Assembly (NCBI GenBank): GCA_029204225.1
Contig: CM055094.1
Location: 20,623,407 to 20,687,406 of the forward strand
Reading direction: 5' to 3'
Length of the DNA stretch: 64,000 nt
Origin: Diphasiastrum complanatum
Taxonomy: Eukaryota > Streptophyta > Lycopodiopsida > Lycopodiales > Lycopodiaceae
A program made the translations under genes and the position numbers. Numbering within the stretch: the stretch's first letter is position 1; each line of letters starts with the position of its first letter. This document shows positions 2,850-64,000 of the stretch, piece after piece. A model generated the notes under the pieces. The model did no database searches. It had not been told where the DNA came from and saw nothing but the letters and a program-made list of their open reading frames with translations.

Positions 2850-3343
2850 TTGATGCTAGCAGATAAAAGCTTGGGAGACTCCCTCAAAACCAGCCAAGAA
2901 TACCAACTCTACTTCTAGGCCTATTCAACAGATTCCACGCAAGCGGCTTCTCAAAAGAGAAAGAGTTCCTTCTCTCCACAAGGGCCAACTGCAAAGCACC
3001 AAACGGTCGGCCTAGTGAAGCTTACATCGAGAAAGACACCCATGTCCTCTATGTCACGGATGACGGATCGATACAAGCGAAGTGTCATGCTTCATCAGAT
3101 GAAACAGACTCAAATGATATGGAGTTTACATTCGAGGTGTTCCATGGCCCAAAAGGGCTGTCTAAGAAATGCCATGTAAGAGAGAGAAAATCGTCGAATT
3201 TCAAAACTCCGATCGAGTTTTTGGTCTGCCCGCACAACTCCAATGACTTGACCTCACTAGTAACATATGTAGTGAACTGGAAGTTGGGTAGCCGCAACGC
3301 GTGGGGTCCATACTTCAAGATTCTATTTTCTACCATTAACTAA
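2850..3343 (+). pseudogene. Unknown gene family C, 3' coding part, copy 1 (broken)
   Basis: Continuation of C. Conserved blocks are MLADKSLGDSL, YQLYFQAYCN, HASGFSKEKEF and NGRPSEAYIEKDT, then an acidic/basic linker (AKRHASSDETDSNDME) and an end block FHGPKGLSKKCHVRERKS up to LTSLVTYVVN. The linker with KRH next to DETDSND could be a nuclear-localisation and acidic patch, but that is inference only. Better-preserved versions are 143-codon ORFs at 55,833-56,264 (+) and 55,354-54,923 (-). The 46,477-46,870 copy has a different linker containing QPPPTQQSRQRTKIRAK. Function unknown. Confidence 0.45.
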
Positions 3344-3806
3344 CATGACTTCTCATGTAAATGCAAATCGTATTGCACATCAAAGTTTTCTTTCCATCTA
3401 CAAAAGTGTTCACATCAAAGAAAAATAGTCTTATCGATCTGCAAATCATGGCAAGAAACTTTGAGATCACAATGAGCGCCAACGTGAATCTAAATTTTTG
3501 AAATTCTGAAAATATGGAGTGTGTTGGATCAAATGGAACGGCAAGGTTATCTCAAACTCTTGCAATTCAAAATTTGCAATTTCAACACACATCTATTGAA
3601 AAAATATTTTGCTTACTTTGCTCATAACTGCAAAGCTTTGATTTTGCATATAAGGCAAGAAACATGGAGTGTGATGGATCAAAAAGAGTGCCAAGGTCAT
3701 TTCAAACTTTTACAATTATTTTTTAATATAATTAAGACGAGTTTTAATAGCTTACAAGATATATAACATGTGGGGTTTCTACTAGATTAATCTATCGATT
3801 ATTAAG
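3344..3806 (+). repeat. Spacer repeat E between C and F, copy 1
   Basis: Non-coding block containing AACTTCTCATGTAAATGC, a purine/pyrimidine-mixed middle, an internal imperfect duplication of GGAGTGTGTTGGATCAAATG / GGAGTGTGATGGATCAAAAA, and TCTATCGATTATTAAGATG just before the F start codon. It always joins C to F: copies are at 32,990-33,505, 46,890-47,403, 54,387-54,900 (-) and 56,290-56,799. Its constant place makes it the likely 5' flank or promoter of F. I see no clear TATA box. Confidence 0.55.
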
Positions 3807-4735
3807 ATGTCTAAATATCATCTCCATATTGATCTTCCCATAGAATATGCTCCACTGTCGAGAAAAAATCTGAAAGGATCCACCTTACCAGCTCACCGAA
3901 GGACGAAGGACAGGAAACATCATGGTCTATGGGTTGATGGATGTTTGTATCCAATCGATCCAAGCTCAATGCAACATCCAAATTTTAGATCGGTCACACA
4001 ACTCATACCGTTTTTGTGTGAAGGACACAATAGTCTATTGGGTTATTGTGAACGATTGAAAAGTTATGGCATTAGTTATTCAATGAAGAAAATCCACTGT
4101 TTGGAAAATATGTTGAATGATTTGCTTACTGACTACTGAGAAAAATAAACCTTTTTTTTTGCAAACAAAAGAAGAAAATGAAATCTTGAAGATAGATAAT
4201 TCTCGTTTGCAAGATATTATATTAAATCCCAACCAAGAAACTGACAATATGAAACTAATTGTACAAACATTAAGCAAAAAAGAGTTATTTTAAAAACTAT
4301 TGATGAGCTCTCAACAAGTGGGGGTCAACGGAAAAAAAGAATATATGCTTTCAAGTAGGATTATGTTTTAAACTATTCATGTGTTTTGTTTCATCTAGCA
4401 CATCAATGGTTGTGAATTGTTTTTTTCTAAATCTTATTTTTATTTTGCAGAGCAGCTTTAGTCACCAATGAAAATCCGAAAGACAAGGACATGATTGGAA
4501 AGTCTTTGAGTGCAGTACTTACAGCCAAGTCAACGACGAGTCTACTTGGAAATCAACGATATTCTTGAATCAAGCCCAAGATTGCAGAGGCGCTTATGGG
4601 TGAAGTCGGCAAGATCATTGACCGAAAATTGATACAAGGATCATGTGATTATTTTGGTATTAGCAGGGATGCATATGACACAATGTTTGAAATTATCAAA
4701 GAGGCATTTGGACAAGTACATATAAAACAATTTCC
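3807..4735 (+). pseudogene. Unknown coiled-coil gene F, copy 1 (3'-truncated, broken)
   Basis: Starts at MSKYHLHIDLPIEYAPLSRK, which is the same start in five copies. An N-terminal globular part (about residues 1-110, with LWVDGCLYPIDPSSMQ and CEGHNSLLGYCERL) is followed by a lysine/glutamate-rich probable coiled coil. A predicted 96-nt intron (4,355-4,450, GTAGGA...TTTTGCAG) joins in frame to an exon reading AALVTNENPKDKDM...KSTTSLLGNQ and EALMGEVGKIIDRK. Homology ends at KQFP (about 4,735), where the leader of the CENH3-like gene begins, so the F 3' half is missing here. The copy is interrupted. I recognise no family. Its best-preserved relatives are at 56,800 (+) and 54,386 (-). Confidence 0.5.
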
Positions 4736-5278
4736 TGCCCCTCCCCGCCTGTCTTTGCCACTCTCTCGCGTTGTGGCGATATCACCCTTAGAGTTCTCAG
4801 TGTCGCCATTACGCGAGATAATTTAACTCTCTCTTGTGTTGTATCTCTGTCCTCGCATGGTATAGATATCTGGCCTTAATGGCTCGGACGAAGCAAACTG
4901 CTAGGCTTACCCATTTTGTTCAACCGTCCCGTCTCCAGACATCTGAACCCATACGTCCGCAAAGACGCGGAAGACCTCGCCGTCCATGGTTGAGGGACAT
5001 CAGGGCCTTGCAGAGGTACACCAAACTTGTGATCCTGAAAGCAGCCTTGTATCGGGCTGTGAGGGAGGTTACACAAGATATGACAACCCATCTGCCCTAT
5101 GCAGTGAGGTGGAATATCGCTGCATTGGAGGCCCTCCATATTGCATACGAGGACTTCTAGACAAAATTGTTTGAGGATTCGATGCTGTGTTCCATTCATG
5201 GCAAGAGGGTAACACTGATGCCCAAGGACATGCTTCTTGTCATGAGATTTCGAAACACCTGTGACAGTGATATGTCAC
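4736..5278 (+). pseudogene. CENH3: CENH3-like histone H3 variant, copy 1 (nonsense-interrupted)
   Basis: Intronless histone-fold ORF. ATG at 4,879 opens MARTKQTAR, identical to the start of histone H3, then a divergent tail, an alpha-N-like block LRDIRALQRYTKLVI, and VREVTQDM. Loop 1 contains VRW followed by ALEAL, where canonical H3 has the shorter RFQSSAVAAL; a longer loop 1 with RW is typical of plant centromeric H3. A TAG at 5,158-5,160 stops translation inside the alpha-2 helix (Q in the other copy), but homology continues in frame through [20 protein letters not shown] to about 5,265. About 143 bp of the leader shared with the copy at 51,877 is present. Most differences between the two copies in the tail change the amino acid, as expected of a decaying copy. 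The minisatellite M follows directly. Confidence 0.8.
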
Positions 5279-6327
<1,049 letters not shown>

Positions 6328-26480: not shown

Positions 26481-26665
26481 TATGGCTATGAGTGTGAAAG
26501 GGGCATGGATTATTCTTGACTTTGAAATGAATGGAGGGCGGGCTTATTCAAGTCACCTAGAGAATGGTCACAAGTTCTCCTTTAAGGATGGGATGCTCTA
26601 TACATATGACTACAATGCCTCAACGTCTAACCCGAAATAGTACAAATAGAATGCAATGCATGGAA

Positions 26666-26818
<153 letters not shown>

Positions 26819-32961: not shown

Positions 32962-33505
32962 CATGTAGTTAATTGGAAGTTGGATAGCCGCAACGCGTGG
33001 GGTCCATACTTCAAGTTTCTATTTTCTACCATTAACTAACATAACTTCTCATGTAAATGCAAATCGTATTGCACATCAAAGTTTTCTTTCCATCTACTCA
33101 AAGCGTTCACATCAAAGAAAAACAGTCTTATCGATCTGAAAATCATAGCAAGAAACTTTGAATATTTTGGACCACAATGAGCGCCAACGTGAATCTTGAA
33201 ATTCAGAAAATACGGAGTGTGTTGGATCAAATGTAGCGGCAAGTTTATTTCAGACTTTTGCAATTCAAAAATTTGCAATTTCAACACACATCTATTGAAA
33301 TAATATTTTGCTTATTTTGCTCATAACAACAAACCTTTGATTTTGCATATAAAGCAAGAAACTTGGAGTAAGATGGATCAAAAAGAGCGCCAAGGTCATT
33401 TCAAACTTTTCCAATGAATTTTTTTTATAATTAAGACGAGTTTTAATAGCTGACAAGATATATAACAAGTTGGTTTTCTACAAGATTAATCTATCGATTA
33501 TTAAG
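32962..33505 (+). repeat. Spacer repeat E, copy 2 (start of palindrome 1 spacer)
   Basis: Begins in the end of C (GTAGTTAATTGGAAGTTGG; AACGCGTGGGGTCC) and runs to TCTATCGATTATTAAGATG before the F start. Same layout as at 3,280-3,806. Confidence 0.55.
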
Positions 33506-33616
33506 ATGTCTAGATATCATCTCCATATTGATCTTCCCACAGAATATGCTCCACTATCAAGAAAAAATCTGAAAGGATCCACCTTACCAGCTCACCAAAG
33601 GACGAAAGACAGGAAA
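33506..33616 (+). pseudogene. Gene F, first codons only, fused to promoter G
   Basis: MSRYHLHIDLPTEYAPLSRK through AHQRTKDRKQ, about 37 codons, then an abrupt switch to the CACGTG-rich sequence at about 33,617. The 212-codon frame continuing to 34,108 is an accident of stop-poor promoter and minisatellite sequence. Similar cuts after RTKDRK are found at 47,516 and 63,890, but there F resumes at its last exon. Confidence 0.6.
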
Positions 33617-33990
33617 CAATCTGCCATTCGGCTACGTGCCCACACGTGCGAGCTAACACATGCCAGAACACACGTCACCAAACCATTCGACCACATGGCC
33701 ACATGTGCAAGTTTCACACATGCGGATACAAAAGTGTTGTCCCACACGTCAGGTACTGATGGGGCACGTGACCACACGTGCGAGCCTATACGTGCAAGAA
33801 CACATGTCGCTGATCCATTCGGCCACGTGTCCCCATGTGGGATCCCACACGTGTTGATCCAGACGTGCAGTTTCACACATGCGTATACAAACGCGTGGTT
33901 TCACATGTCAGCTACTGACTGGGCCACGTGTCGCTGGGATTCACACGTGCCAACTTTTTTCTCCTATATAAGTCCATTCCCGGGGATTGT
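33617..33990 (+). promoter_or_regulatory. Promoter G copy 1: dense CACGTG (G-box/ABRE-like) array with TATA box
   Basis: About 340 bp with many ACACGTG/CACGTGTC hexamers spaced roughly every 20-40 bp, ending in a TATA box CTATATAAG at 33,964-33,972 and a likely start region at about 33,995-34,005. CACGTG is the plant G-box core bound by bZIP and bHLH factors, and ACACGTG matches ABRE. Downstream is minisatellite M, not an ORF. The sequence belongs to the repeated cassette, with copies at 47,800, 52,605 (-) and 63,600 (-). Confidence 0.65.
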
Positions 33991-34560
33991 ACAATGGCCG
34001 GTGATTCCAGGGATTTCAGAAAGGTCAACATACGACGAGTTGAGGCTTCAACTACAACCACATAGTCCTACCATAGGCTTGTGTGGTTTACCACATGGCC
34101 TACCATAGACTTCTGTAGCAAGCCACATAGGCCTGCGATTGACCAAGGCTGTCATAGGTGCCTACGTGTCAAGTCACGTATGACTGCCATGTGGCAAATC
34201 ATGCAGGCTTGGGGCTAGCGATGTGTCAAGCCATGTAGGCCCATTATAGGCTGGCAAGCTAACCAGGCTCTGCCTACGTGGTCTGCTATTTGCGAAGCCT
34301 ATCGCACACTACCACATGGCAAGCCACGTAGGTCTACCACATGGCAAATCATGCAGGCTTGAGGGTTGCCATGTGGCAAGCCATGTAGGCCTACCATAAC
34401 CCTGTATGTCAAGTCAACTGGGCCCTGTGCCACGTAGGCTTGAGTGGACCTAGAGATCTATATATATATATAGGTGGGCTCAAATCTCTTGCCATAAAAA
34501 TCAGCCAAGAAGATAAACTTTTGTATGCTTGAGTGGAGCTAGAGAGAGAGAGCTGGGGCT
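33991..34560 (+). repeat. Minisatellite M, copy 3
   Basis: After GTTGAGGCTTCAACTACAACC the M units begin (ACCATAGGCTTGTGTGG; CCATGTGGCAAATCATGCAG), with a short (TA)n at 34,457-34,472 followed by GGTGGGCTCAAATCTCTTG. Units are more diverged than at 5,279. Confidence 0.75.
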
Positions 34561-34810: not shown

Positions 34811-34989
<179 letters not shown>

Positions 34990-35032
34990 TCACACATGAA
35001 GTACTTCCCTGTGGTATGGCCTAGCATCAACA

Positions 35033-35242
35033 TTGAAAAAAATATCTGATGGAGATAAGAAGGTTCCCAAGCAAATTTCAAATGAGAATCTTGCAGAGAA
35101 AGTATTGAAACCACAGTTTGCGAGGGATCCCAAAGAATCGAACTTGAGTGTACAAGCCCAACAAAAGCGCATACACCAACTCACCACACATGGGAAGATC
35201 GTTAAATTTGAATTTGAAGAAAGATCATTGAAATGTTTGTAG
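35033..35242 (+). CDS. Unrecognised 69-codon ORF (ISDGDKK ORF), copy 3
   Basis: Third open copy, same length and stop as at 6,383 and 14,564, with GDKKVPKQ and EERSLKCL as variants. Not recognised. Confidence 0.3.
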   Translation: MKKISDGDKKVPKQISNENLAEKVLKPQFARDPKESNLSVQAQQKRIHQLTTHGKIVKFEFEERSLKCL

Positions 35243-45820: not shown

Positions 45821-46880
45821 AACATCTTCCAGTTCTGATGACCCAACTCAAGACATAATTGACATCACCATGGAAAGCCTTGATATCTCTGAGATGAACA
45901 CTTGGTACCAGGAGGCACACTAATTCCTGAGCCACATAGAGTTCCAACTTCCTCTTTTCAGTGGCTATCAGAGCCCATTTCTATTGCATATTGCTTATAA
46001 CCACACCGACAGATTTTCCAGTTCATGTTACCTCCTGACCAAAATTTTGTTTATATTTTCTGGAGCTGACCTCAATACATTTGGCTTCCCTAGGGGACCA
46101 AACACAATCAAAGGATCCTCAAAATAATTGAATCCACAGCATACTTCAAATACATAGACCCCTCAGTGGACAAGTGGAAAAAAAAAGATGGTTACCGTAT
46201 CGAGGTCATAAATGATAAGCCCTTAGCTGCTCCATGCGCCTATCTAACGAAATATACATAGCGCTATAGGTACAAGATCATGCATATCCCCATGAAACTA
46301 TTCCACATGATGGTTGATTCTAGACTACACAATCATAACCTTTATGACTGGGCCCAGTTTGCTTCCAACTGCCTCCATGACTATATCAAGAACAAGCAAA
46401 CCTCCAGTTATTGGGCTATCTTCTGATAGATGTCACTTTGCAGCAGTTGAGCCACTGACCTCGATTTTGAGACCACTTGATGCTAGCAGATAAAAGCTTG
46501 GGAGACTCCCTCAAAACCAGCCAAGAATACCAACTCTACTTCCAGGCCTATTGCAACAGATTCCACGCAAGCGGCTTCTCAAAAGAGAAAGAGTTTATTC
46601 TCTTCACAAGGGCCAACTCCAAAGCACCAAACGGTCGGCCTAGTGAAGCTTACATCGAGAAAGACACCAATGTCCTCTATGTCACAGACAAAGGATCATT
46701 CTACTGAAGAGTCTTTTGCTCAACATGAAGACACCACCACACTAGTCCAACCACCACCAACACAACAATCCAGGCAAAGGACCAAGATACGAGCGAAGCG
46801 TCATGCTTCATCACATGAAACAGACTCAGATGATATGCAGCTTGACCTCACTAGTAACGTATGTAGTTAACTAGAAGTTG
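45821..46880 (+). pseudogene. Unknown gene family C, both coding parts, copy 5
   Basis: This copy keeps both parts in their normal order. Part 1 has SGADLNTFGFP, KDGYRIEVINDKPLAAPCAY and YDWAQFASNCLHDYIKNKQ. Part 2 has MLADKSLGDSLKTSQEYQLY, FHASGFSKEKEFILFTRANS and SEAYIEKDTNVLYVT, then a proline/glutamine-rich linker (QPPPTQQSRQRTKIRAKRHA) not seen in most other copies. The linker is basic and could be a nuclear-localisation signal (inference). The copy ends at about 46,870, without the FHGPKGLSKK block. Interrupted as it stands; function unknown. Confidence 0.45.
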
Positions 46881-47403
46881 GATAGCCACAACGCGTGGGG
46901 TCCATACTTCAAGATTCTATTTTCTACCATTAACTAACATAACTTCTCATGTAGATGCAAATCGTATTGCACATCAAAGTTTTCTTTCCATCTACTCAAA
47001 GCATTCACATCAAAGAAAAATAGTCTTATCGATCTGAAAATCATGGCAAGAAACTTTGAATATTTTGGACCACAATGAGCGCCAACGTGAATCTTGAAAT
47101 TCAGAAAATACGGAGTGTGTTGGATCAAATGGAGTGGCAGGGTTATTTCAAAGTTTTGCAATTCAGGAAATTTGCAATTTCAACACACATCTATTGAAAA
47201 AATATTTTGCTTACTTTGCTGATAACTACAAAGCTTTGGTTTTGCATATAAAGCAAGAAACTTGGAGTGTGATGGATCAAAAAAAGCGCCAAGGTCATTT
47301 CAAACTTTTCCAATTAATTTTTTTTATAATTAAGACGAGTTTTAATAGCTTACAAGATATATAACAAGTTGGTTTTCTACTAGATTAATCTATCGATTAT
47401 TAA
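46881..47403 (+). repeat. Spacer repeat E, copy 3
   Basis: Same order of blocks as at 3,344-3,806, ending ATCGATTATTAAGATG at the F start. From about 47,397 it also begins palindrome 2's left arm. Confidence 0.55.
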
Positions 47404-47720
47404 GATGTCTAAATATCATCTCCATATTGATCTTCCCACAGAATATGCTCCACTGTCGAGAAGAAATCTGAAACGATCCACCTTACCAGCTCACCAAAGG
47501 ACGAAAGACAGGAAACAAGTTTCAAACAAGTTTTAAAGAAGATCATGAAATTCTATTTTGGAAGTTTAGTAAAACAGAATATCCAGAGATACTTAAGAAT
47601 CATATGAGCGACACACCACTCAATGTTCCTAGAATAGGTGATTTTAAGTTGGAATGGCATTTGGTTCACACACCAAGAGCTACAGGGATTGAAAATCCAA
47701 AACTTAGCGAAATGTTTTAA
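47404..47720 (+). pseudogene. Gene F, internally deleted: first codons joined to last exon
   Basis: MSKYHLHIDLPTEYAPLSRR to RTKDRKQ (47,404-47,517) is joined to FKEDHEILFWKFSKTEYPE, HMSDTPLNVPRIGDFKLEWH and PRATGIENPKLSEMF with a stop at 47,720. The middle, including coiled coil and introns, is absent. The same deletion is mirrored at 63,660-63,990. The last exon is shared with 52,962-52,681 (-). Confidence 0.6.
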
Positions 47721-47799
47721 CTGATCAAACAACATTTATATAGCTAGAACCAATAAAACCCAAGTCGTACACTCGTCGATCCAACAACGGATCAGATCT

Positions 47800-48240
47800 A
47801 TGGCGCGTAATACAACCGTCCACACGTGTGACACCACACGTGCTACAATACACGTCAATCTGCCATTCGACCACGTGCCCACACGTGCGAGCTAACACGT
47901 GCCAGAACACACGTCGCCAAACCATTCGACCACATGGCCACATGTGCAAGTTTCACACATGCGGATACAGAAGTGTGGTCCCACACGTCAGGTACTGATT
48001 GGGCCATGTGACCACACGTGCGAGCCGATACGTGCAAGAACACATGTCGCTGATCCATTCGGCCACGTGTCCCCACGTGGGATTCCACACGTGTTGATCC
48101 AGACGTGCAGTTTCACACATGCGTATACAAACATGTGGTTCCACATGTCAGCTACTGACTGGGCCACGTGTCGCTGGGATTGACACGTGCCAACTTTTTT
48201 CTCCTATATAAGTCCATTTCCGAGGATTGTACAATGGCCG
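47800..48240 (+). promoter_or_regulatory. Promoter G copy 2: CACGTG array with TATA box
   Basis: By eye 13 ACGTG cores in about 390 bp, 11 of them palindromic CACGTG, plus three ACACGTC variants. The TATA box CTATATAAG lies at 48,204-48,212. An ATTGTACAATGG start-like region at 48,226-48,237 follows, then minisatellite M and, 500 bp on, reverse transcriptase R. In plants such arrays respond to bZIP/bHLH regulators (abscisic acid, light); whether this one is active is unknown. Confidence 0.65.
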
Positions 48241-48720: not shown

Positions 48721-49593
48721 CATAAAAACCAGCCAAGAAGATAAACTTTTTCAAACCCTAAATGTGCCCTAAAAGACACAAAAAATAGCAAGTATCAAGT
48801 CTAAAAAATCAGCACCAAATTGTGTCGAAACCACACATTAGATGGATGCAGGAACTTGCCCTCCTACAAGCCTTGTGTGCTGAAAATTTCAGCCTAAAAT
48901 TGCATTACAAACTCAAAAAACCAGCAAGCAAATAATTAGGTTAACCCCAAAAAAGCAATATTCCTTTGAACAGGGTTGACGATTTGAAAATATGACTAAA
49001 ATGATTTGTTCGGCATTTAAAATTGCCAAAATCAAATTGCTCAGATACAAACGACTATCTGGAACCAATGATTTTAAATGGGTTTCGAAAAATATAGGTT
49101 CATATGAATGGAGTACTATAGACCGCAAGAATACCTTATGCATTTGGAATTCCTATTTGATAGACAATTGCATTATCAGACTTGGGGATCATACTTGGCG
49201 ACAGGTTGGGGGAATACCAATGGGTTACCAGTGTCTTGTAATTGGTACTTTTATTTTTTGAAAATGCAGTTTATTAAGAGGCTTGCAAGATTAGGGGAAA
49301 TTAAATTTATAAACGACTTCAAATATTCATTCAGGTACATTGACGATATATGCTTTATCAATAATCATACGGTTGGACGTTTCCTAGACAAGACTCAACC
49401 AAGAACACCTGACAATCCTTTTTGGATCTATCCCCTGAAATATCTTGAGATAGACAGAAATGACAGCACATGTAATTTGGTGAACTTTCTGAATATTACA
49501 ATTACCTTTAACCCAATTACCGGTTGTACACATCTGTCCAAATATGATAAAAGGGGAGACCCGTGTTTAACTCATATAATAGATCTGTGGTAA
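48721..49593 (+). mobile_element. Penelope-like reverse transcriptase R, copy 1 (interrupted)
   Basis: Encodes the same protein as 62,627-61,710 (-). Visible blocks: DFKWVSKNIGSYEWSTIDRK, QVGGIPMG (RT motif B), RYIDDICFI (catalytic YIDD-type motif C), NPFWIYPLKYLEIDRND and LVNFLNITI. The 161-codon frame 49,108-49,593 holds part of it. Compared with the other arm, this copy is shortened and shifted just after the IPMG motif. The absence of LTR, protease and integrase and the NFL.TI block after motif C point to a Penelope-like or related non-LTR class, not copia or gypsy. Confidence 0.65.
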
Positions 49594-50372: not shown

Positions 50373-51000
50373 ATGGCGATGGATTTACCCACAGGTAAGT
50401 TGAAAGTCGATTTGTTAAATGGTTGTGAATTGAAAGTTGATTTGTTAAATGGTTGTGAATATACTTGTAACTTCAGTACACTTTCTTTCAAGTCTAATCA
50501 ATGGTTTCAAGATAAAGGCAATATTCTAGGGAAAGACATAAGTATAATGTGTGATTTTGGAGGTACTCACAACTTTTTGAATGTGCGGCTTGTATAGAAG
50601 CTTCGGGTGCCCACCATGGCCAGTGATCAACATTATGTGATCCTCTAGCCTCAGGTTCCGACACAGAAGTTTGGGATGTGAAAGTCCCTAATTTGGAGGT
50701 TCGGATGCAAGATCATGTTGAGCGGCTCGACTTCCATGTTGTGAATCTTGATAGAACTTATGTAATCCTAGGATATGAATGGTTTTTTGATAAATCAGAT
50801 TCGTTGAAAATAGATTTTAAAAACCATACTATTGTATTTAAAGATAAGTTTGACCAGATAGTCTCTATTTATGGGGAGACTAATGTACTTCCATCACCGA
50901 TGGTTTCCTCGGCGGAAGTTATGGAAAAACTACATAATTCTAAGTATGAGCTTTTTCATCTTGTTTTGAAATCTCGTATGGATTGTATGTGAATGTGTTA
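50373..51000 (+). mobile_element. Ty3/gypsy protease-region fragment, family A copy 4 (longest)
   Basis: Starts with a duplicated KVDLLNGCE block (50,400-50,460), then EYTCNFSTLSFKSNQWF, the active-site-like DFGGTHNF at about 50,556-50,580, and TYVILGYEWFFDKSDSLKID to IYGETNVLPSPMV. It is the same gene piece as at 1-590 with its left side intact. Other pol domains and LTRs are missing. Broken fossil; repeat B follows. Confidence 0.7.
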
Positions 51001-51478
51001 ACATGCTTTAAAACCAAAAATTAGCATCAAGAACAGCTTTTAATGCAAGATTTAAAGCAAGAGTTCAATGACGTTTTTCCTAAATAGCTAAGATTTTCTG
51101 AGGTACATACTTCTAATTATATTGCAGTCCGTTGTTAGAACATAATCAAATATTTCTGAAATGACATCTTTGAAATGTTTCAGAAAAGAGTAAGAACATA
51201 ACAATAGATTTTCAATTTCAAAATTGCAGAAGACATCAAACATAAAGTACCATTCACTTTTGATGTTAGGTAAGTATGACCAAGCAAACACAATATTATG
51301 GAAGGACTTGTGTATATAAGGCCAAAGATTGTAATAAAATACGAGTGTAAAAGTGTCTCACATGAATGGTCTCAAACATTCTATTACAGTAGCGTAAATG
51401 TAAAAGTATCTTTGCCTTGTCCTTGCGCGTGCTGAGCTGTAGTCGATCCACCGTATTCCTAGTGAGAGTTCTTCTATG
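51001..51478 (+). repeat. Repeat B, 5' piece, copy 4
   Basis: B from AGCATCAAGAACAGC to CTAGTGAGAGTTCTTCTATG, then a switch at about 51,478 to the 3' end of the CENH3-like gene on the other strand. The intron and RLKEPG exon are absent. The B sequence supplies, by chance, the last 60 codons of the CENH3-like ORF. Confidence 0.65.
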
Positions 51479-51877
51479 TGGCATACCGCTGTCATAGGTG
51501 TTTCGAAACCTCATGACAAGAAGCATGTCCTTGGGCATCAGTGTCACCCTCTTGCCATGAATGGAACACAACATCGAATCCTCAAACAATTTTGTCTGGA
51601 AGTCCTCGTATGCAATATGGAGGGCCTCCAATGCAGCGATATTCCACCTCACTCCATAGGGCAGATGCGTGGTCATATCTTGTGTAACCTCCCTCACAGC
51701 CCGATACAAGGCTGCTTTCAGGATCACAAGTTTGGTGTACCTCTGCAAGGCCCTGATGTCCCTCAACCATGGACGGCGAGGTCTTCCATGTCTTTGCAGA
51801 CGTATGGGTTCAGATGTCTGGGGACGGGACAGTTGAAGAAAATGGGTAAGCCTAGCAGTTTGCTTCGTCCGAGCCAT
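51296..51877 (-). CDS. CENH3: CENH3-like (centromeric) histone H3 variant, copy 2, open reading frame
   Basis: Intronless 193-codon ORF; residues 1-127 are histone. MARTKQTAR equals the histone H3 start (K4 kept), followed by a short divergent arginine-rich tail (10-36) without the K9 and K27 contexts. The alpha-N region is PWLRDIRALQRYTKLVI (37-52) and alpha-1 is AVREVTQDM (60-68). A loop 1 about four residues longer than canonical H3 contains VRW (76-78), then alpha-2 (AALEALHIAYEDF) and [20 protein letters not shown] (98-117), close to the SDSMLCAIHARRVTLM of plant CENH3. Longer loop 1 with RW is the usual CENH3 mark. Residues from about 135 derive from repeat B, so the C-terminus is foreign. 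Plant CENH3 genes usually have several introns, so this looks like a processed copy. Promoter G lies upstream. Confidence 0.82.
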   Translation of the reverse strand: MARTKQTARLTHFLQLSRPQTSEPIRLQRHGRPRRPWLRDIRALQRYTKLVILKAALYRAVREVTQDMTTHLPYGVRWNIAALEALHIAYEDFQTKLFEDSMLCSIHGKRVTLMPKDMLLVMRFRNTYDSGMPHRRTLTRNTVDRLQLSTRKDKAKILLHLRYCNRMFETIHVRHFYTRILLQSLALYTQVLP

Positions 51878-52186
51878 TGAGGCCGGATATCTATACCATA
51901 CGAGAACAGAGATACAACAGAAGAGAGAGCTAAATTATATCGCGTAATGGCGACACTGAGAACTCTAAGGGTGATATCGCTACAACGTGAGAGAGTGGCA
52001 AAGACAGGCGGGGAGAGGCAGGGACTTGCATGATGGCGATACTGGGAAAGTCAGGCTAATTTCGCTACGATGTGAGAGGGTGTAAGGAATAGGCCTGGGG
52101 ACGAGGTCGCTCGCATGATGGAGATATCAAGAATGCAGGTCGTATGGAAGCAATCAAACATGATAGCAAATTATGCGAAAACCTAT
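51878..52186 (-). other. 5' leader of the CENH3-like ORF
   Basis: About 310 bp between the promoter G start region and the ATG. It contains repeated motifs of the type GCGATATCACC/GTAGCGAAATTAGCC and TCTCTCACGTTGTAG/CCTCTCACATCGTAG, suggesting small internal duplications. The proximal 143 bp are shared with copy 1 at 4,736-4,878, so the leader travelled with the gene. The junction to promoter G is at about 52,186, where ATTGTA switches to GGTTTTCGC. Confidence 0.6.
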
Positions 52187-52605
52187 ACAATCCCTGGGAA
52201 TGGACTTATATAGGAGAAAAAAGTTGGCACGTGTGAATCCTAGCGACATGTGGCCCAGTCAATGGCTGACATGTGGAACCACACGTTTGTATACGCATGT
52301 GTGAAACTGCATGTCTGGATCAACACGTGTGGGATCCCATGTGGGGACATGTGGCCGAATGGATCAGCGACATGTGTTCTTGCACATCGGCTCGCACGTG
52401 TGGTCACGTGGCCCAATCAGTAACTGACGTGTGGGACCACACTTCTGTATCCGCACGTGTGAAACTTGCACATGTGGCCATGTGGTCGAATGGTTTGGTG
52501 ACGTGTGTTCTGGCACGTGTTAGCTCACACGTGTGGGCACGTGGCCGAATGGCAGATTGACGTGTATGGTAGCACGTGTGGATGGTTGTATTACGCGCCA
52601 TAGAT
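52187..52605 (-). promoter_or_regulatory. Promoter G copy 3, driving the CENH3-like ORF
   Basis: TATA box (CTATATAAG on the minus strand) at 52,213-52,205, preceded by about 370 bp of clustered CACGTG/ACACGTG elements. The predicted start is near 52,180, giving a leader of roughly 300 nt to the ATG at 51,877. In the other three G copies the same promoter is followed by minisatellite M. So CENH3 sits in a repeated promoter context, either ancestrally or by capture. Confidence 0.6.
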
Positions 52606-52680
52606 CTGATCCACTGTTGGATCGACGAGTGTACGGCTTGGGTTTTATTGGTTCTAGCTATATAAATGTTGTTTGATCAG

Positions 52681-54386
52681 TTAAAACATTTCGCTAAGTT
52701 TTGGATTTTCAATCCCTGTAGCTCTTGGTGTGTGAACCAAATGCCATTCCACCTTAAAATCACCTATTCTAGGAACATTGAGTGGTGTGTCGCTCATATG
52801 ATTCTTAAGTATCTCTGGATATTCTGTTTTACTAAACTTCCAAAATAGAATTTCATGATCTTCTTTAAAACCTGTTTGAAACACAAAATCATGAACTATT
52901 TTAAGAGAATTGAACTCAGACCTATAATGACAAAACAATATTAGCTTAAAACACAAAACCATTAATTCTCGAAATGAATTAGTTGCTAGTACTCAATAGA
53001 ATAGATTCAAACCTGGAAAGCTGCCAACCACCAAATATTATTTTTGGATTGCACACTGAAATTAAGACTCTCCGAGTTTATCATATTGCTTAATGTTCCA
53101 TTCATAAGTGTAACACTAACCCTTTCCAGCTTTTGTCCCTTTATTACTTCTGATTCATCTAACTTGGAGAACTAATATCAATTTTTCAACAATTTCATTT
53201 GTGATTCCATAAAACTTTACAATAAATCTCTATAAATGATTCAGATCTACAAACATATTGTTGGTAGAATCAAATGACAAAGTGCCATGTTTTGAGTTAT
53301 AAATTTCATTGATATGGTAAGGAATACCAATGATGTTTTGCAAGCCCCTGTTTTACACATCCCTCTCTAATTTGATTTGAAAGGGCCGGGTGATAGGAAA
53401 TTGTTTTATATGTACTTGTCCAAATGCCTCTTTGATCATTTTAAACATTGTGTCATATGCATCCCTGCTAATACCAGAATAATCACATGCTCCTTGTATC
53501 AATTTTCGATCAATGATCTTGCCGACTTCACCCATAAGGGCCTCTGCAATCTCGGGCTCGATTCGAGAATATCATTGATTTCCAAGTAGACTCGTCGTTG
53601 ACTTGGCTGTAAGTATTGCATCCAAAGACTTTCCAATCATGTCCTTGTCTTTCGGATGTTCATTGGTGACTAAAGCTGCTCTGCAAAATAAAAATAAGAT
53701 TTAGAAAAAAACAATTCACAACCATTGATGTGCTAGATGAAACAAAACACATGAATAGTTTAAAACATAATCCTACATGAAAGCATATATTCTTTTCTTC
53801 CGTTGACCCCCACTTGTTGAGAGCTCGTCAGTACTTTTTAAAATAACCCCTTTTCGCTTATTGTTCAGTATTTTCTTCCGTAGTGTGTTTACTTCTACAT
53901 TTATTTGACAATATGAGGTACACAATGTTTGTACAATTAGTTTCATATTGTCAGTTTCTTGGTTGAGGTTTAATATAATATCTTCCAAACAAGAATTATC
54001 TATCTTCAAGATTTCATTTTCTTCTTTTGTTTGCAAAAAAAAGTTTCTTTTTCTCGGTAGTCAGTAAGCAAACCATTCAACATATTTTCCAAACAGTGGA
54101 TTTTTTTCATTGAATAACTAATGCCATAACTTTTCAATCTTTCACAATAACCCAATAGACTATTGTGTCCTTCACACAAAAACAGTATGAGTTGTGTGAC
54201 CGATCTAAAATTTGGATGTTGCATTGAGCTTGGATCGATTGGATACAAACATCCATCAACCCATAGATGCCAATGTTTCCTGTCTTTCGTCCTTTGGTGA
54301 GATGGTAAGGTGGATCCTTTCAGATTTTTTCTCGACAATGGAGCATATTTTGTGGAAAGATCAATATGGAGATGATATTTAGACAT
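52681..54386 (-). pseudogene. Unknown coiled-coil gene F, copy with all exons (interrupted)
   Basis: Longest F copy. Exon 1 (54,386-53,777): MSKYHLHIDLSTKYAPLSRK, LWVDGCLYPIDPSSMQ, CEGHNSLLGYCERL, then a coiled coil around EENEILKIDNSCLEDIILN and SYCQINVEVNTLRKKIL. A 96-nt intron (53,776-53,681) leads to exon 2 with ALVTNE, EIAEALMGEVGKIIDRK and SRDAYDTMFKMIKEAFGQ. Further coding-like blocks follow: GTLSFDSTNNMF, then KLERVSVTLMNGTLSNM...NNIWWLAAFQ (about 53,150-53,013). A probable 91-nt intron (53,012-52,922) precedes a last exon SEFNSLKIVHDFVFQ through PRATGIENPKLSEMF (stop 52,681). About 480 codons in all. Several interruptions make it a likely pseudogene. No family recognised; no membrane segment. 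Confidence 0.5.
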
Positions 54387-54922
54387 CTTAATAATCGATA
54401 GATTAATCTAGTAGAAAACCCACTTATTATATATCTTGTAAGCTATTAAAGCTCGTCTTAATTATAAAAAAATAATAATTGTAAAAGTTTGAAATGACCT
54501 TGGCGCTCTTTTTGATCCATCACACTCCATGTTTCTTGCTTTATATGCAAAATCAAAGCTTTGTAGTTATGAGCAAAATAAGCAAAATATTTTTTCAATA
54601 GATGTGTGTTGAAACTGCAAATTTTTTAATTGCAAAAGTTTGAGATAACCTTGCCGCTCCATTTGATCCAACACACTCCATATTTTCTGAATTTCAAAAA
54701 TTTAGATTCACGTTGGCGCTCATTGTGATCCAAGATATTCAAAGTTTCTTGCCATGATTTGCAGATCGATAAGACTGTTTTTCTTTGATGTGAACGCTTT
54801 AGTAGATGGAAAGAAAACTTTGATGTGCAATACGATCTGCATTTACATGAGAAGTCATGTTAGTTAATGGTAGAAAATAGAATCTTGAAGTATGGACCCC
54901 ACGCGTTACGGCTACCCAACTT
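54387..54922 (-). repeat. Spacer repeat E, reversed copy
   Basis: Mirror of 56,270-56,799, between C and F on the minus strand, with the internal GGATCAAATGG/GGATCAAAAAG duplication. No ORF. Confidence 0.55.
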
Positions 54923-55354
54923 CTAGTTAACTACATACGTTACTAGTGAGGTCAAGTCATCGGAGTTGTGCAGGCAGACCAAAAACTCGGTCGGAGTTTT
55001 AAAATTCGACGATTTTCTCTCTCTTACATGGCATTTCTTAGACAGCCCTTTTGGGCCATGGAACTCCTCGAATGTAAACTCCATATCATTTGAGTCTGTT
55101 TCATCTGATGAAGCATGACGCTTCGCTTGTATCGATCCTTCGTCTGTGACATAGAGTACATGGGTGTCTTTCTCGATGTAATCTTCACTAGGTCGACCGT
55201 TTGGTGCTTTGCAGTTGGCCCTTGTGGAGAGAAGGAACTCTTTCTCTTTTGAGAAGCTGCTTGCGTGGGATCTGTTGCAATAGGCCTGGAAGTAGAGTTG
55301 GTATTCTTGGCCGGTTCTGAGGGAGTCTCCCAAGCTTTTATCTGCTAGCATCAA
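54923..55354 (-). CDS. Unknown gene family C, 3' part, open 143-codon copy
   Basis: Open from MMLADKSLGDSLRTGQEYQL to LTSLVTYVVN. It includes FQAYCNRSHASSFSKEKEFL, SEDYIEKDTHVLYVTDEGS, AKRHASSDETDSNDMEFTFE and HGPKGLSKKCHVRERKS. The mirrored copy at 55,833-56,264 is open over exactly the same span, and most differences are single residues. The N-terminal part of C is absent on this side. Soluble and charged; function unknown. Confidence 0.4.
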   Translation of the reverse strand: MMLADKSLGDSLRTGQEYQLYFQAYCNRSHASSFSKEKEFLLSTRANCKAPNGRPSEDYIEKDTHVLYVTDEGSIQAKRHASSDETDSNDMEFTFEEFHGPKGLSKKCHVRERKSSNFKTPTEFLVCLHNSDDLTSLVTYVVN

Positions 55355-55832: not shown

Positions 55833-56264
55833 TTGATGCTAGCAAATAAAAGCTTGGGAGACTCCCTCAGAACCGGCCAAGAATACCAACTCTACTTCCA
55901 GGCCTATTGCAACAGATTCCACGCAAGCGGCTTCTCAAAAGAGAAAGAGTTTATTCTCTCCACAAGGGCCAACTCCAAAGCACCAAACGGTCGGCCTAGT
56001 GAAGCTTACATCGAGAAAGACACCCATGTACTCTATGTCACAGACGAAGGATCGATACAAGCGAAGCGTCATGCTTCATCAGATGAAACAGACTCAAATG
56101 ATATGGAGTTTACATTCGAGGAGTTCCATGGCCAAAAAGGGTTGTCTAAAAAATGCCATGTAAGAGAGAGAAAATCGTCGAATTTTAAAACTCCGACCGA
56201 GTTTTTGGTCTACCCGCACAACTCCAATGACGTGACCTCACTAGTAATGTATGTAGTTAACTAG
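55833..56264 (+). CDS. Unknown gene family C, 3' part, open 143-codon copy (mirror)
   Basis: Open frame mirroring 55,354-54,923: MMLANKSLGDSLRTGQEYQL, CNRFHASGFSKEKEFILS, SEAYIEKDTHVLYVTDEGS and SNDMEFTFEEFHGQKGLSKK. Upstream (55,705-55,780) lies the C block FASNCLHDYIKNKQTSSYW. Function unknown. Confidence 0.4.
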   Translation: MMLANKSLGDSLRTGQEYQLYFQAYCNRFHASGFSKEKEFILSTRANSKAPNGRPSEAYIEKDTHVLYVTDEGSIQAKRHASSDETDSNDMEFTFEEFHGQKGLSKKCHVRERKSSNFKTPTEFLVYPHNSNDVTSLVMYVVN

Positions 56265-56799
56265 AAGTTGGGTAGCCGTAACGCGTGGGGTCCATACTTC
56301 AAGATTCTATTTTCTACCATTAACTAACATGACTTCTCATGTAAATGCAAATCGTATTGCACATCAAAGTTTTCTTTCCATCTACTAAAGCGTTCACATC
56401 AAAGAAAAACAGTCTTATCGATCTGCAAATCATGGCAAGAAACTTTGAATATCTTGGATCACAATGAGTGCCAACGTGACTCTAAATTTTTGAAATTTAG
56501 AAAATATGGAGTGTGTCGGATCAAATGTAGCGGCAAGGTTATCTCAAACTTTTGCAATTCAAAAATTTGCAGTTTCAACACACATCTATTGAAAAAATAT
56601 TTTGCTTATTTTGCTCATAACTGCAAAGCTTTGATTTTGCATATAAAGCAAGAAACATGGAGTGTGATGGATCAAAAAGAGCGCCAAGGTCATTTCAAAC
56701 TTTTACAGTTATTTTTTTTTATAATTAAGACAAGCTTTAATAGCTTACAAGATATATAATAAGTGGGTTTTCTACTAGATTAATCTATCGATTATTAAG
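56265..56799 (+). repeat. Spacer repeat E, copy in palindrome 3 right arm
   Basis: Starts AGTTGGGTAGCCGTAACGCG and ends ATCGATTATTAAGATG at the F start. The 104-codon frame 56,445-56,759 is probably a by-product, as it is not conserved in the other copies. Confidence 0.55.
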
Positions 56800-57690
56800 A
56801 TGTCTAAATATCATCTCCATATTGATCTTCCCATAGAATATGCTCCACTGTCGAGAAAAAATCTGAAAGGATCCACCTTACCATATCACCAAAGGACGAA
56901 AGACAGGAAACATTGGCATCTATGGGTTGATGGATGTTTGTATCCAATCGATCCAAGCTCAATGCAACATCCAAATTTTAGATCGGTCACACAACTCATA
57001 CTGTGTTTGTGTGAAGGACACAATAGTCTATTGGGTTATTGTGAAAGATTGAAAAGTTATGGCATTACTTATTCAATGAAAAAAATCCATTGTTTGGAAA
57101 ATATGTTGAATGGTTTGCTTATTGACTACCGAGAAAAAGAAACGTTTTTTTTGCAAACAAAAGAAGAAAATGAAATCTTGAAGATAGATAATTCTTGTTT
57201 GCAAGATATTATATTAAACATCAACCAAGAAACTGACAATATGAAACTAATTGTACAAACATTGTGTACCTCATATTGTCAAATAAATGTAGAAGTAAAT
57301 ACATTATGGAAGACAATACTGAACAATAAGCGAAAAAGGGTTATTTTAAAAAGTACTGAGAGCTCTCAACAAGTGGGGGTCAACGGAAAAAAAAAATATA
57401 TGTTTTCAAGTAGGATTATGTTTTAAACTATTCATGTGTTTTGTTTCATCTAGCACATCAATGGTTGTGAATTGTTTTTTCCTAAATCTTATTTTTATTT
57501 TGCAGAGCAGCTTTAGTCACCAATGAAAATCCGAAAGACAAGGACATGATTGGAAAGTCTTTGAGTGCAGTACTTACAGCCAAGTCAACGACGAGTCTAC
57601 TTGGAAATCAACGATATTCTCAAATCGAGCCCAAGATTGCAGAGGCCCTTATGGGCGAAGTCGGCAAGATCATTGACCGAAAATTGATAA
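56800..57690 (+). pseudogene. Unknown coiled-coil gene F, copy in palindrome 3 right arm (3'-truncated)
   Basis: Exon 1 is open from MSKYHLHIDLPIEYAPLSRK at 56,800 past the coiled coil (EENEILKIDNSCLQDIILN; SYCQINVEVNTLWKTIL) to the intron donor at 57,410. The 208-codon frame reads into the intron. The 96-nt intron (57,410-57,505, GTAGGA...TTTTGCAG) leads to ALVTNENPKDKDM, KSTTSLLGNQRYSQIEPKIA and EALMGEVGKIIDRK, where the copy is cut at about 57,690. Exon 1 here is the best evidence that F was a translated protein. No recognised family. Confidence 0.5.
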
Positions 57691-60104
57691 AAGGTGTATG
57701 CTATTTTTTTCCATTTGAAAAATATAAAAAATATCTTTACAAAGGGTCTTTTTTGGATTTAGAACTTCTCTAATGTAATGAAAATCTTAGTAGGCAGTTC
57801 CTCCATGTATGCTTTAGAGTATCTAAAAAATAAAGAATCTACATTTATTTCTGATTCAGATAATCGGTTCAAAGAACATCATAGGTGGCCGAGTGCTATT
57901 TTGGATGGAAGGACACCTTTTGAGATGCTATTCAAGAGGAGGCCGAGTGTCAATTTTCTAAGAACCTTTGGATGCACATGCTATGTCAACATTACTCTTG
58001 ATGATAGAACCAAGGAGGATCCATCTTCAAGAAGAGGTATTTTTGTTAGACATAGTGAGGTGAGTAAAGCCTACAAGGTTTACATTCCTTCTACTAACAA
58101 AGTGATTGTCGGTAGAGATGTCATTTTTTATGAGGGAAACATTCCAAAGGTGTCTTCAAGCATGATTTATGGTAAAGTAGATGGATCTAACATTCTTGAT
58201 GTTGATGAGCAGGATCCTACTTTGGATGGTGATGATGATGGACCTTCATCAAGTCAAAAGCCAAGGAGAACATCAAGAGAAAGACAAGTACCTTCAAGGC
58301 TCACATATGATCAAAAGGGTAAGCAAGTAGTTTCTGGAAATTATGTTGCTTTCCTAACCTCTTTGGATGAGCCTACAAGTGTAGATCAAGCAAGGAAAAA
58401 AGAGGAGTGGATCCAAGCAATGGATCTTGAGTATCGATCTCTTATGAAGAGTGGAACATCTTTTGGAGGATCTTCTTGTGTACATGGAGCTATGCAAGTG
58501 GATGGATGTTATCTTGCTGTAAAATCAAGTAATGGATCTGGAAAACAAATTTTGTTCAATGACTTTGATGGTCAAGTTGAAGATCAAGAGGTTGATCTCA
58601 AAGCGCTTCAACTAGTCAAAAGGGAAGTTGGCAATTTGGAGCTAGTCAAGAGCATCAAAGGAGAGGTAATTGGCAAAGGTGTTATGGATCTGTTTTTGCA
58701 GCATATTGAAGACTCAAGTAAGGTTAAAGGAGCAGCAAGGAAGTGTTGTTCAAGTTTACTTTACTTGTTCTGTCTCATGTTTGAGCAATTTCATGTGGAT
58801 GTGTGCAAATTGTCAAGATATGGTAAAACTAGCTACATTGGTGAGCATTGTTTTGATGTTGGATTTGTACTAGCATTTTTGGCTGATTTTGCTGATGAAA
58901 ATGAGGCTATTGGAGGTTCATTATGTCACTCATCCATGGCCAAGTTCTCAAGTGTTGAGCTACTTGGTGCCAATACTTGGAGATTGTCAATTTTTGGTGA
59001 ATTCATGGTCATTTTCTTGTGTCAAGTAGATCTTGAAGATGGAGTAGTGCAAACTACTTGGTTTATGGAGTCATGTGGTGCTGGATTTGCATCATTCATG
59101 TACTCACCTACTCATGGATTTCCAAGGTTTGATGGTTTCTTGTGGCAAGATGAAGATGGAGGCTCATTCATGGAGTATCATGGTGGATACAAGGCAACAA
59201 AGGACACAGAAGGAGGAGACATGCAAGCAAAAGTTGATCACTCACATTTATTGTTTGTTTGTTGTATTTTTCCAGAGAGTTCAGAGTTGGAAGCATGGTG
59301 GAACATTTACATTCTATTTGATTCTTCATGTTCTAGTCACATTTTTACATGTAAAATTGATGTAAGAAATAGTGAAGCATCCCAGGTGGACACTATTCTC
59401 TATATCAATTATGGTTGTTTCTATTTTGAGCATTACATGATCATTGAAAGGAGGTCTATTCTTAGGAAGAAGATCATTCTTATGATGGATCAAAGTTCTA
59501 TTGGCAAAAACTATGCTAGGAGCATTGGAAACTAGGAAAGCGAGTTTTGAGGTACATCATTGGAACTCGAGATTTTGGCATATTGTATGAGGCATCATCA
59601 CCTAATCTTTTTGGATTTTCAGATTCGGACTATGCTGGAGATGTAATGGATTGGAAATCCATTAGTGCTTATTGTATTTTCATAGGTGATGGAGCTATAT
59701 CATGGATTTCAAAGAAACAAGCCACTATCTCATTGTCATCTAGTGAGGCCGAGTACAAAGCTCTTACACATTGCACAAAGGAGATGGTATGGATCAAAAG
59801 GATGATCAAGGATCTTCACTTGCTGGATTTTTCAGAGAGCCCAATCATCTTTTGTGAAAATCAATCAGCCCAAAGAATGTCATCCAATCCTATCTTTCAT
59901 GCTAGGAGCAAGCATATTGAGATACAATATCATTTTGTGAGGGAGCGAGTCATTGCAAAGGAGGTGGAGTTTCAACATGTGTCTTCAAGGGAATGTGTAG
60001 CTGATATCTTCACCAAAGCATTGGGAAAAGACTTGTTCATGAAGCATAGGACTTCACTTGGAGTATTATCAAAGTCTATGCTAAAACTAGTTGAAGAGGG
60101 AGTG
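57691..60104 (+). mobile_element. Non-autonomous Ty1/copia derivative, interior (5'-truncated, RT replaced)
   Basis: The 585-codon frame 57,778-59,535 starts in the C-terminal part of copia integrase (RWPSAILDGRTPFEMLFKR; LRTFGCTCYVNI; FVRHSEVSKAYKVY; VIVGRDVIFYEG) and the acidic pre-RT linker (QDPTLDGDDDGPSSSQKPRR). From about 58,450 to 59,520, where the reverse transcriptase should be, is an open stretch of some 350 codons with none of the RT motifs. A separate frame, 59,547-60,107, is copia RNase H: FSDSDYAGD, SSSEAEYKAL, RSKHIEIQYHFVRE and CVADIFTKALGK. The 5' LTR, gag and protease are absent. The element cannot be autonomous. Confidence 0.85.
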
Positions 60105-61709: not shown

Positions 61710-62627
61710 CTAGATACATATCAAGCTACCCCAAATAACCACAGATCTATTATATGAGTTAAACACGGGTCTATATGAGGCAAGGTGTATATATTGCAAA
61801 AAGCGAAAAGGAAGGTCTCCCGTTTTATCATATTTGGACAGATGTGTACAACCGGTAATTGGGTTAAAGGTAATTGTAATATTCAGAAAGTTCACCAAAT
61901 TACATGTGTTGTCATTTATGTCTATCTCAAGGTATTCCAGGGGATAGATCCAAAAAGGATTGTCAGGTGTTCTTGGTTGAGTCTTGTCTAGGAAACATCC
62001 AACCGTATGATTATTGATAAAGCATATATCGTCAATGAACCTGAACGAATATTTGAAGTCGTTTTCAAATTTAATTTCCCCTAATCTTGCAAGCCTCTTA
62101 ATAAACTGCATTTTAAAAAAAGAAAGGTACCAATTACAAGACATTGGTGAATATGAAAAACCCATTGGTATTCCCCCGACCTGTTGCCAAGTATGATCCC
62201 CAAGTCTGATAATGCAATTGTCTATCAAATAGGAATTCCAAATGCATAAGGTATTCTTGCGGTCTATAGTACTCCATTCATATGAACCTGTATTTTTCGA
62301 AACCCATTTAAAATCATTGGTTCCAGATATTCGTTTGTATTTGAGCAATTTGATTTTGGCGATTTTAAATGCCGAACAAATCATTTTAGTCATAATAGTT
62401 TTCAAATCGTCAATCCCGTTCAAAGGAATATTGCTTTTTTGAGGGTAACCTAATTCTTTGCTTGCTGGTTTTTTGAGTTTGTAGTGCAATTTCAGGCTGA
62501 AATTTTTAGCACACAAGGCTTGTAGGAGGGCGAGTTCCTGCATCCATCTAATGTGTGGTTTCGACACATTTTGGTGCTGATTTTTTAGATTTGATACTTG
62601 CTGTTTTTTGTGTCTTTTAGGGCACAT
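61710..62627 (-). mobile_element. Penelope-like reverse transcriptase R, copy 2 (open, 305 codons)
   Basis: Open ORF with RT palm motifs: residues 151-163 GGIPMGFSYSPMS (motif B), 195-203 RFIDDICFI (motif C, catalytic DD at 199-200), 244-253 LVNFLNITIT, and an end block FLQYIHLASYRPVFN. The N-terminal fingers (motif A region) are poorly defined, and no endonuclease (GIY-YIG or APE), protease, RNase H or integrase is visible, so it is a partial polymerase of a Penelope-like or related LTR-less class. It begins MCPKRHKKQQVSNLKNQ just downstream of minisatellite M, 570 bp after promoter G on the same strand. The N-terminus resembles no known domain. Confidence 0.65.
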
Positions 62628-63110: not shown

Positions 63111-63610
63111 TGTAGCCTCAACTCGCCGTATGTTGACCTTTCTGAAATCCCTGGAATCACCGGCCATTGTACAATCTCCGGGAATGGACTTATATAGGAG
63201 AAAAAAGTTGGCACGTGTCAATCCCAGCGACACGTGGCCCAGTCAGTAGCTGACATGTGGAACCACACGTTTGTATACGCATGTGTGAAACTGCACGTCT
63301 GGATCAACACGTGTGGGATCCCACGTGGGGACACATGGCCGAATGGATCAGCGACATGTGTTCTTGCAGGTATCGGCTCGCACGTGTGGTCACGTGGCCC
63401 AATCAGTACCTGACGTGTGGGACCACACTTCTGTATCCACATGTGTGAAACTTGCACATGTGGCCATGTGGTCGGATAGTTTGGTGACGTGTGTTCTGGC
63501 ATGTGTTAGCTCGCACATATGGGCATGCGGCCGAATGGCAGATTGACGTATATTGTAGCACGTGTGGTCTCACATGTGTGGACGGTTGTATTACGCGCCA
63601 TAGATCTGAT
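63111..63610 (-). promoter_or_regulatory. Promoter G copy 4: CACGTG array with TATA box
   Basis: TATA box (CTATATAAG, minus) at 63,197-63,189, with clustered CACGTG/ACACGTG upstream to about 63,600. Several cores have decayed to CACATG here. It points toward M and R. Confidence 0.65.
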
Positions 63611-63659
63611 CCGTTGTTGGATCGACGAGTGTACGGCTTGGGTTTTATTGGTTTTAGCT

Positions 63660-64000
63660 ATATAAATGTTGTTTGATCAGTTAAAACATTTCGCTAAGTT
63701 TTGGATTTTCACTCCCTGTAGCTCTTGGTGTGTGAACCAAATGCCATTCCACCTTAAGATCACCTATTGTAGGAACATTGAGTGGTGTGTCGCTCATATG
63801 ATTCCTAATTATCTCTGGATATTCTGTTTTACTAAAAATCCAAAATAGAATTTCATGATCTTCTTTAAAACCTGTTTGAAACTTGTTTCCTGTCTTTCGT
63901 CCTTTGGTGAGCTGGTAAGGTGGATCCGTTCAGATTTTTTCTCGACAGTGGAGCATATTTTGTGGGAAGATCAATATGGAGATGATATTTAGACATTTTA
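63660..64000 (-). pseudogene. Gene F, internally deleted copy (mirror)
   Basis: On the minus strand the F head (YHLHIDLPTKYAPLSRKNL, from the window edge to about 63,892) is joined to the last exon (FKEDHEILFW to LSEMF, stop at about 63,680). Same deletion as at 47,404-47,720, so it predates palindrome 2. Confidence 0.55.

Follow-up and report, generated by a model that had tools for sequence, protein, structure and literature searches.

The window analysed here is a stretch of 64,000 bases from Diphasiastrum complanatum, corresponding to C3:20623407-20687406 of a 1.74 Gb assembly. It contains an open reading frame (ORF) of 193 codons at 51296-51877 on the minus strand, which a sequence-only reading had taken for an intronless retrocopy of a centromeric H3 (CENH3) gene, embedded in repeats. 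Translation confirmed the MARTKQTAR start, the RW dipeptide and a 16-letter motif that this reading had listed, and the claim of a complete histone fold held as well: Pfam Histone (PF00125) matched residues 20-124 with E=3.7e-20, and a PDB search returned H3 chains, the best at 1.6e-19. With these values the match to histones lies far beyond chance. PF00125 also matched five other copies and families, with E-values of 3.6e-15 to 1.4e-25. The family alignment of the window ORF covers codons 1 to ~130 and ends near position 51488, and residues ~131-193 are other repeat DNA, not histone. The features of the window are as follows, with element positions referring to a copy on C8 described below.

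51488..51877, minus strand: histone part of the ORF, codons 1-130, from a family-1 gene; H3-like tail and complete fold, cut off ahead of the protease domain (family alignment; Pfam Histone)
51296..51487, minus strand: non-histone 3′ end of the ORF; a small number of codons common to clustered copies, then unrelated repeat, with the junction near 51476-51480 (repeat comparison)
4879..5267, plus strand: second histone copy, with one in-frame TAG at codon 94 (genome search, family alignment)
51490..55075, minus strand: element copy that contains the ORF and has an internal deletion, so that element 1-2337 runs into 5200-6434 (93.5% and 85.2% identical to the C8 element)
3128..5266, plus strand: second element copy, element 1-1151, 1210-1679 and 5928-6434 (match to the C8 element)
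56112..57708, plus strand: third element copy, 5′ part (element 1-1596); its ORF A is open over 56800-57426 and encodes 208 aa without a Pfam match
46841..48233, plus strand: element fragment with the 2337/5200 deletion junction
63168..64000, minus strand: element fragment with the 2337/5200 deletion junction
32963..33993, plus strand: element fragment (139-800 and 5393-5767)

Both histone copies lie inside amplified repeats, as had been proposed, and matches to the element make up 10,574 of the 64,000 window bases. The copy that bears the ORF keeps the 5′ end of the element and the histone domain, without the protease part. Its 2337/5200 deletion junction recurs in the window at 47664 and 63737, and the repeat at 50825-51479 recurs at 1-981, 11604-12258 and 21205-21893. 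This copy is probably a non-autonomous deletion derivative, amplified together with its surroundings.

Other repeats share the window. ORFs of 181-318 aa with very similar translations are found on both strands (27104-28060, 30299-31102, 30996-31589, 37660-38253, 38147-38950 and 9244-9789), and the two tested, at 27104 and 30299, had no Pfam match. Retrotransposon fragments at 24168-24782 and 57778-59535, which we take to be copia-type, matched Pol_BBD (9.8e-20) and SH3_retrovirus (1e-23). Another repeated ORF (61710-62627, minus strand; 49108-49593, plus strand) had no Pfam match; we presume a resemblance to Penelope-type reverse transcriptase. Long CT microsatellite runs give rise to Ser-Leu ORFs at 26564-27061 and 34539-35114.

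The full gene and its probable mobile element

In dispersed copies the histone exon extends to 357 aa, uninterrupted in the copies L031 and L036, and is made up of a tail, the fold, a linker that is basic and rich in proline, and a C-terminal part that is conserved; 4 of 26 such copies are free of stops and frameshifts in this exon. An apparent stop after IIPYCSK falls inside a likely splice donor, TTCAAA followed by GTAAG. Of 26 copies looked at, the site was located in 21, and 18 of these have GTAAG; a donor also lies at this position in one family-2 copy and one family-3 copy. With splicing read from sequence alone, "intronless" is a fitting description of the histone exon but not of the full gene, which has further exons 3′ of it. 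In family 1 the downstream exons contribute HWSVH, MNSL and QQDDAFSCGW. Because each copy has its own damage, the family-1 string was joined from the exons of two copies; so assembled, it matched Peptidase_C48 (PF02902) at 1.7e-4, with 21.9 bits against a cutoff of 20.7. Exons 1-2 alone had no Pfam match.

As an independent test, downstream DNA was fetched for one copy each of families 2 and 3. The HW, MN and QQ exons are present in both, and PF02902 was the sole Pfam match of their strings, at 2.9e-3 and 1.1e-3 (17.9 and 19.3 bits), below the cutoff. The protease E-values are modest, one of the three family strings (family 1) passing the cutoff. Against PDB, a profile of the three families retrieved SENP2 at 2.6e-4 and a Ulp1-like protease at 0.077, with weaker rows that include the unrelated Ndt80 (0.24). 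HW, QQ and CGW, which we take to be the His, Gln and Cys of the C48 active site, are aligned in the protease part of families 1 and 3; in the single family-2 copy Tyr replaces Cys ([C/Y]GW). At the expected position of the catalytic Asp, placed by eye, Asn was found in 10 of 10 family-1 finds and also in families 2 and 3. AlphaFold, run on 10 sequences, gave an uninformative pLDDT of 37 and was not used. Identity between families is 41-52% in exon 1 and 40-43% in the protease part. The predicted full gene comprises an H3-like domain, a basic linker and a C-terminal ULP1/SENP-type domain over further exons, and this join recurs in two diverged families.

The gene is carried by a repeated unit whose limits we read from copies on C9, C8 and C6. 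On C8 the unit measures 9968 bp between matched ends, which are imperfect inverted repeats of the approximate form CATTA-N-AGGAGTT...CCAAAAGGGC, read by eye; CATTA is absent from one of seven distinct 5′ ends (C14). A 3′ end at 9.5 kb, suggested by both copies first compared, was discarded, since L062 places the end 480 bp further. Such inverted termini are found on dispersed copies with differing flanks, as is characteristic of a TIR transposon. No target-site duplication was seen in four paired insertions (C12, C1, C4 and C8); a fifth insertion, on C16, fell outside this comparison as its 5′ end was not found. Two copies on the same contig, C8:17887394-17897361 and C8:18435507-18445474, have the same length and flanks, lie 548 kb apart and are 99-100% identical at their ends, and represent either a segmental duplication or an assembly duplicate.

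The C8 copy contains, in order, plus-strand ORFs A-D, minus-strand ORFs pointing away from the histone gene, the histone gene itself and more minus-strand ORFs. Neither ORFs A-D nor the other element ORFs scanned had a Pfam match above cutoff, no transposase was recognised among them, and ORF C had no PDB match of note. Viral contigs that were searched yielded no relative. Next to the family-3 histone (L119, L068) are two short ORF A-like pieces and relatives (38-47%) of the minus-strand gene, which are arranged head-to-head with the histone like those of family 1. Upstream of the family-4 histone (L120, L069) are relatives of ORFs A and B (41% and 51%) on the same strand, with B running into the histone frame, and further upstream lies a minus-strand relative (34-36%) head-to-head with a decayed family 2/3-like histone. 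Although gene order in families 3 and 4 is only partly the same, these neighbours indicate that element ORFs and histone recur together in diverged families. The decayed histone, at L120:1542-2075, has family-4 element ORFs next to it, which means that two copies with histone genes are either adjacent or nested there.

On balance we favour the view that the window ORF is a 3′-truncated copy of a gene belonging to ~10 kb mobile elements with inverted termini, and that this gene encodes a fusion of a histone with a deSUMOylase.

Relationship to H3 and CENH3

The tree was built from 18 histone folds over 93 columns; its strength is limited by the short, fast-evolving sequences and by the reference sequences they were set against. 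Families 1-4 formed one group (96/92), apart from H3, CENH3 and family 5. AU tests rejected a union of families 1-4 with canonical H3 (p=0.019) and of family 1 alone with plant CENH3 (p=4e-7), did not reject families 1-4 with plant CENH3 (p=0.091), and gave p=0.031 for families 1-4 with all CENH3/CENP-A, all of these p values being weakened by the naming of groups after the tree had been inspected. The earlier suggestion that the protein is closer to plant CENH3 than to canonical H3 finds partial support in these tests, which reject the union with canonical H3 and also that of family 1 alone with plant CENH3. A deep origin shared by families 1-4 and plant CENH3 is compatible with these alignments (p=0.09). 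The long loop 1 with RW, cited as a CENH3 mark, is present in family 1, but its four additional residues are peculiar to that family among those compared, loop 1 of families 2 and 3 having the length of H3. Family 5 (L063-L066, L070, L071, L073-L075) is a separate multicopy H3-like family with a loop 1 of normal length; the C-terminal extension is absent in most fetched copies, and several have poly-proline upstream.

A search for a separate multi-exon CENH3, which the sequence-only reading had recommended, produced a candidate. The pattern CAIHA[KR]RVT, whose nine codons miss any CENH3 with other letters there, occurs at 29 places. Only one of them has the HARRVT form, a spliced exon at C3:74762854, and the exon after it reads PKDLHLARRLRGASENSFI. 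This gene is a candidate for the native CENH3. Its upstream exons were not found in 5.5 kb (L078, C3:74762000-74767500) or in the next 5.5 kb, so the candidate is only partly described, by its two last exons, and it was too short to enter the tree. Over its 41 known residues, two of them inferred at exon junctions, it is 51% identical to the window protein and 80% identical to the genome's own H3. Two family-5 copies share 68% identity with the same residues.

These comparisons bear on the proposal that the window gene is a retrocopy of the native CENH3 and a possible competitor of it. The CENH3-like motifs, the intronless histone exon and the existence of a separate candidate multi-exon gene all speak for such an origin. 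It is contradicted by the 51% identity to a candidate that is itself 80% like the genome's own H3, by the rejection of family 1 with plant CENH3, and by the protease join, the multi-ORF element context and the copy number. We reject a retrocopy of the host CENH3 as very improbable. What stands of the original description is a divergent H3-like fold with CENH3-like marks; what falls is its status as a lone CENH3 retrocopy.

Copy number, clusters and selection

The gene had been described as present twice, which is correct within the window only. A genome search with the window protein gave 7985 loose candidates, and every one of the 150 scored matched at E <1e-63. For the C-terminal part by itself 3764 candidates were obtained, and the 150 scored matches among them lie on 21 of the contigs C1-C23; for ORF C by itself, 150 scored matches came from 9469 candidates. 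Candidates at this first look are unconfirmed copies, and the counts may include duplicated assembly contigs. A degenerate DNA pattern for the protease Cys exon, allowing up to two mismatches, was found at 1271 places (631 + 640), compared with 0 for the reversed control. The histone, C-terminal and Cys-exon counts are not those of a low-copy host gene such as CENH3.

Among the best 150 of the 7985 histone candidates, 91 fall in three clusters (C3:18.5-21.8, C3:29.9-30.2 and C14:49.4-49.9 Mb) and 59 are dispersed. A rival idea is that the CENH3-like domain docks the element machinery on centromeric chromatin, steering insertion or allowing hitch-hiking; the dense C3 and C14 clusters would then mark the sites. 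The RW and longer loop 1 of family 1, the union of families 1-4 with plant CENH3 that was not rejected and the concentration of histone matches in the cluster ranges are consistent with such targeting. Against this, loop 1 of families 2-3 is of H3 length, no match to the C-terminal part lies in the cluster ranges among its best 150 of 3764 candidates, and in the 30 clustered copies fetched the alignment to the gene stops at ~codon 130. Furthermore, the C14 cluster is less than 3 Mb from a contig end. We consider centromere targeting rather unlikely, although targeting, whether to centromeres or to nucleosomes in general, is the main rival to the anti-silencing role proposed below.

Selection was assessed in copies picked by DNA similarity, of which 12 of 20 held ORF pieces and 10 were kept after near-identical ones had been dropped. 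In these, dN/dS for the whole exon was 0.44 (0.31-0.65). By region, the C-terminal part had 0.37 (0.21-0.63), the fold 0.57 (0.29-1.29), a range that includes 1, and the tail 0.84 (0.39-2.20). Copies picked by protein similarity gave a fold value of 0.26 that is biased by the picking, and we therefore relied on the DNA-picked copies and on neutral simulation. In protein-picked clustered copies the fold value, 0.28, lies below all 60 neutral simulations subjected to the same picking (0.50; 0.37-0.72), whereas the tail (0.70 versus 0.63 simulated) and the frequency of stops (30 of the 91 clustered matches among the best 150 of 7985 candidates, versus 38%) are near neutral. With dN/dS below 1 in the DNA-picked copies and a fold value below neutral simulation, the gene seems, from these substitution patterns, to have been constrained as elements spread; we make no claim for the maintenance of any single copy.

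A host multicopy histone variant, such as an H3 of sperm or gametophytes, carried along by repeats at a later stage, might also explain why truncated clustered copies keep a complete fold, with a dN/dS below all 60 simulations. Stops occur in these copies at near-neutral frequency, however, and the full gene is element-borne, which makes such an origin very improbable. Alternatively, a captured histone gene could have been joined by chance to an element protease and ridden along as a passenger without benefit to the element. Decay is seen in most of the copies fetched, and gene capture by plant transposons is the subject of a review (PMC13317346). But the same donor-site join is found in families as divergent as 41-52% (exon 1) and 40-43% (protease part) identity, and dN/dS falls below 1 in the DNA-picked copies; this reading is already disfavoured, and we think it improbable.

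A possible role against silencing

The tail of the element histone is distinctive. K4, Q5, T6, L9 and T10 are present in all 26 dispersed copies. All 31 distinct sequences from the clusters or the window (32 entries, as the window copy was included twice) likewise keep K4-Q5-T6 and have L9-T10 in place of K9-S10. The DNA-picked copies with tail data have K4, Q5, T6 and L9 in 4 of 4 and T10 in 3 of 4. Family 3 starts with MARTKQTTRPKS and family 4 (L072) with MDRRKQTKREFF, both keeping KQT and not K9. The K9-bearing tail of canonical H3 is thus not that of the element histone.

Transposon silencing in plants proceeds through H3K9me2, and repression has been linked to SUMO conjugation. We tentatively suggest that the fusion protein is an accessory anti-silencing factor, through a mechanism that we infer as follows. 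The histone domain would be incorporated into chromatin, paired with H4. Its tail, which keeps K4 but is without K9 and the K27 region, could then not carry the usual silencing marks, and the attached protease would remove SUMO from chromatin repressors in the vicinity of element copies. A histone unable to take the mark, together with a SUMO-protease-like domain, would fit an anti-silencing factor comparable in role to VANC or to the TET/JBP proteins of transposons.

Histones are known in some viruses, and transposons that counter silencing by means of methylation antagonists are also known; to our knowledge, no mobile element has been found with a core-histone-like protein, nor with a histone joined to a protease. 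No report of a transposon-encoded core histone appeared among the matches listed for the open-access literature, which covers few subscription journals or preprints. Kaonashi-type Mutator-like plant elements carry ULP1-like proteases and in this respect resemble the element described here. In the latter, by contrast, the protease is fused to an H3-like histone, and no transposase of Mutator type could be recognised. The protease part resembles SENP2/Ulp1 (PF02902) in its HW, Gln and Cys motifs and in its profile match, but has Asn for the catalytic Asp and is joined to a histone fold. With CENH3/CENP-A the element histone shares RW in loop 1, an SML-type C-terminal motif and a divergent tail; it differs in forming its own group in the best tree and in its protease join, high copy number and mobile-element context.

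The VANC proteins are not known to be histones or proteases. They are likewise plant transposon proteins that counteract epigenetic silencing of such elements: those encoded by Arabidopsis VANDAL elements are described as sequence-specific anti-silencing proteins (PMC5735166, PMC10398659). In fungi, diverse DNA transposons encode TET/JBP dioxygenases that are thought to aid escape from silencing (Kojima 2025, PMC12730594). The likeness is that of an accessory epigenetic gene carried by DNA transposons, but in that case the product is an enzyme acting on DNA methylation and the carriers belong to recognised superfamilies, whereas here it is a histone and no superfamily was recognised.

For genome annotation, these findings are a caution that CENH3-like matches can be transposon genes. 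More speculatively, and with a doubtful claim to being right, there may be a superfamily of elements that build their own chromatin, each encoding a nucleosome-competent H3 unable to take K9/K27 silencing marks and joined to a SUMO protease, so that their copies would be wrapped in, or flanked by, unsilenceable nucleosomes of their own making; the truncated, histone-only derivatives might then spread, either parasitising the element or modifying host chromatin in a dominant manner. If it is expressed, the element histone would offer a natural means of testing how the supply of histones affects silencing.
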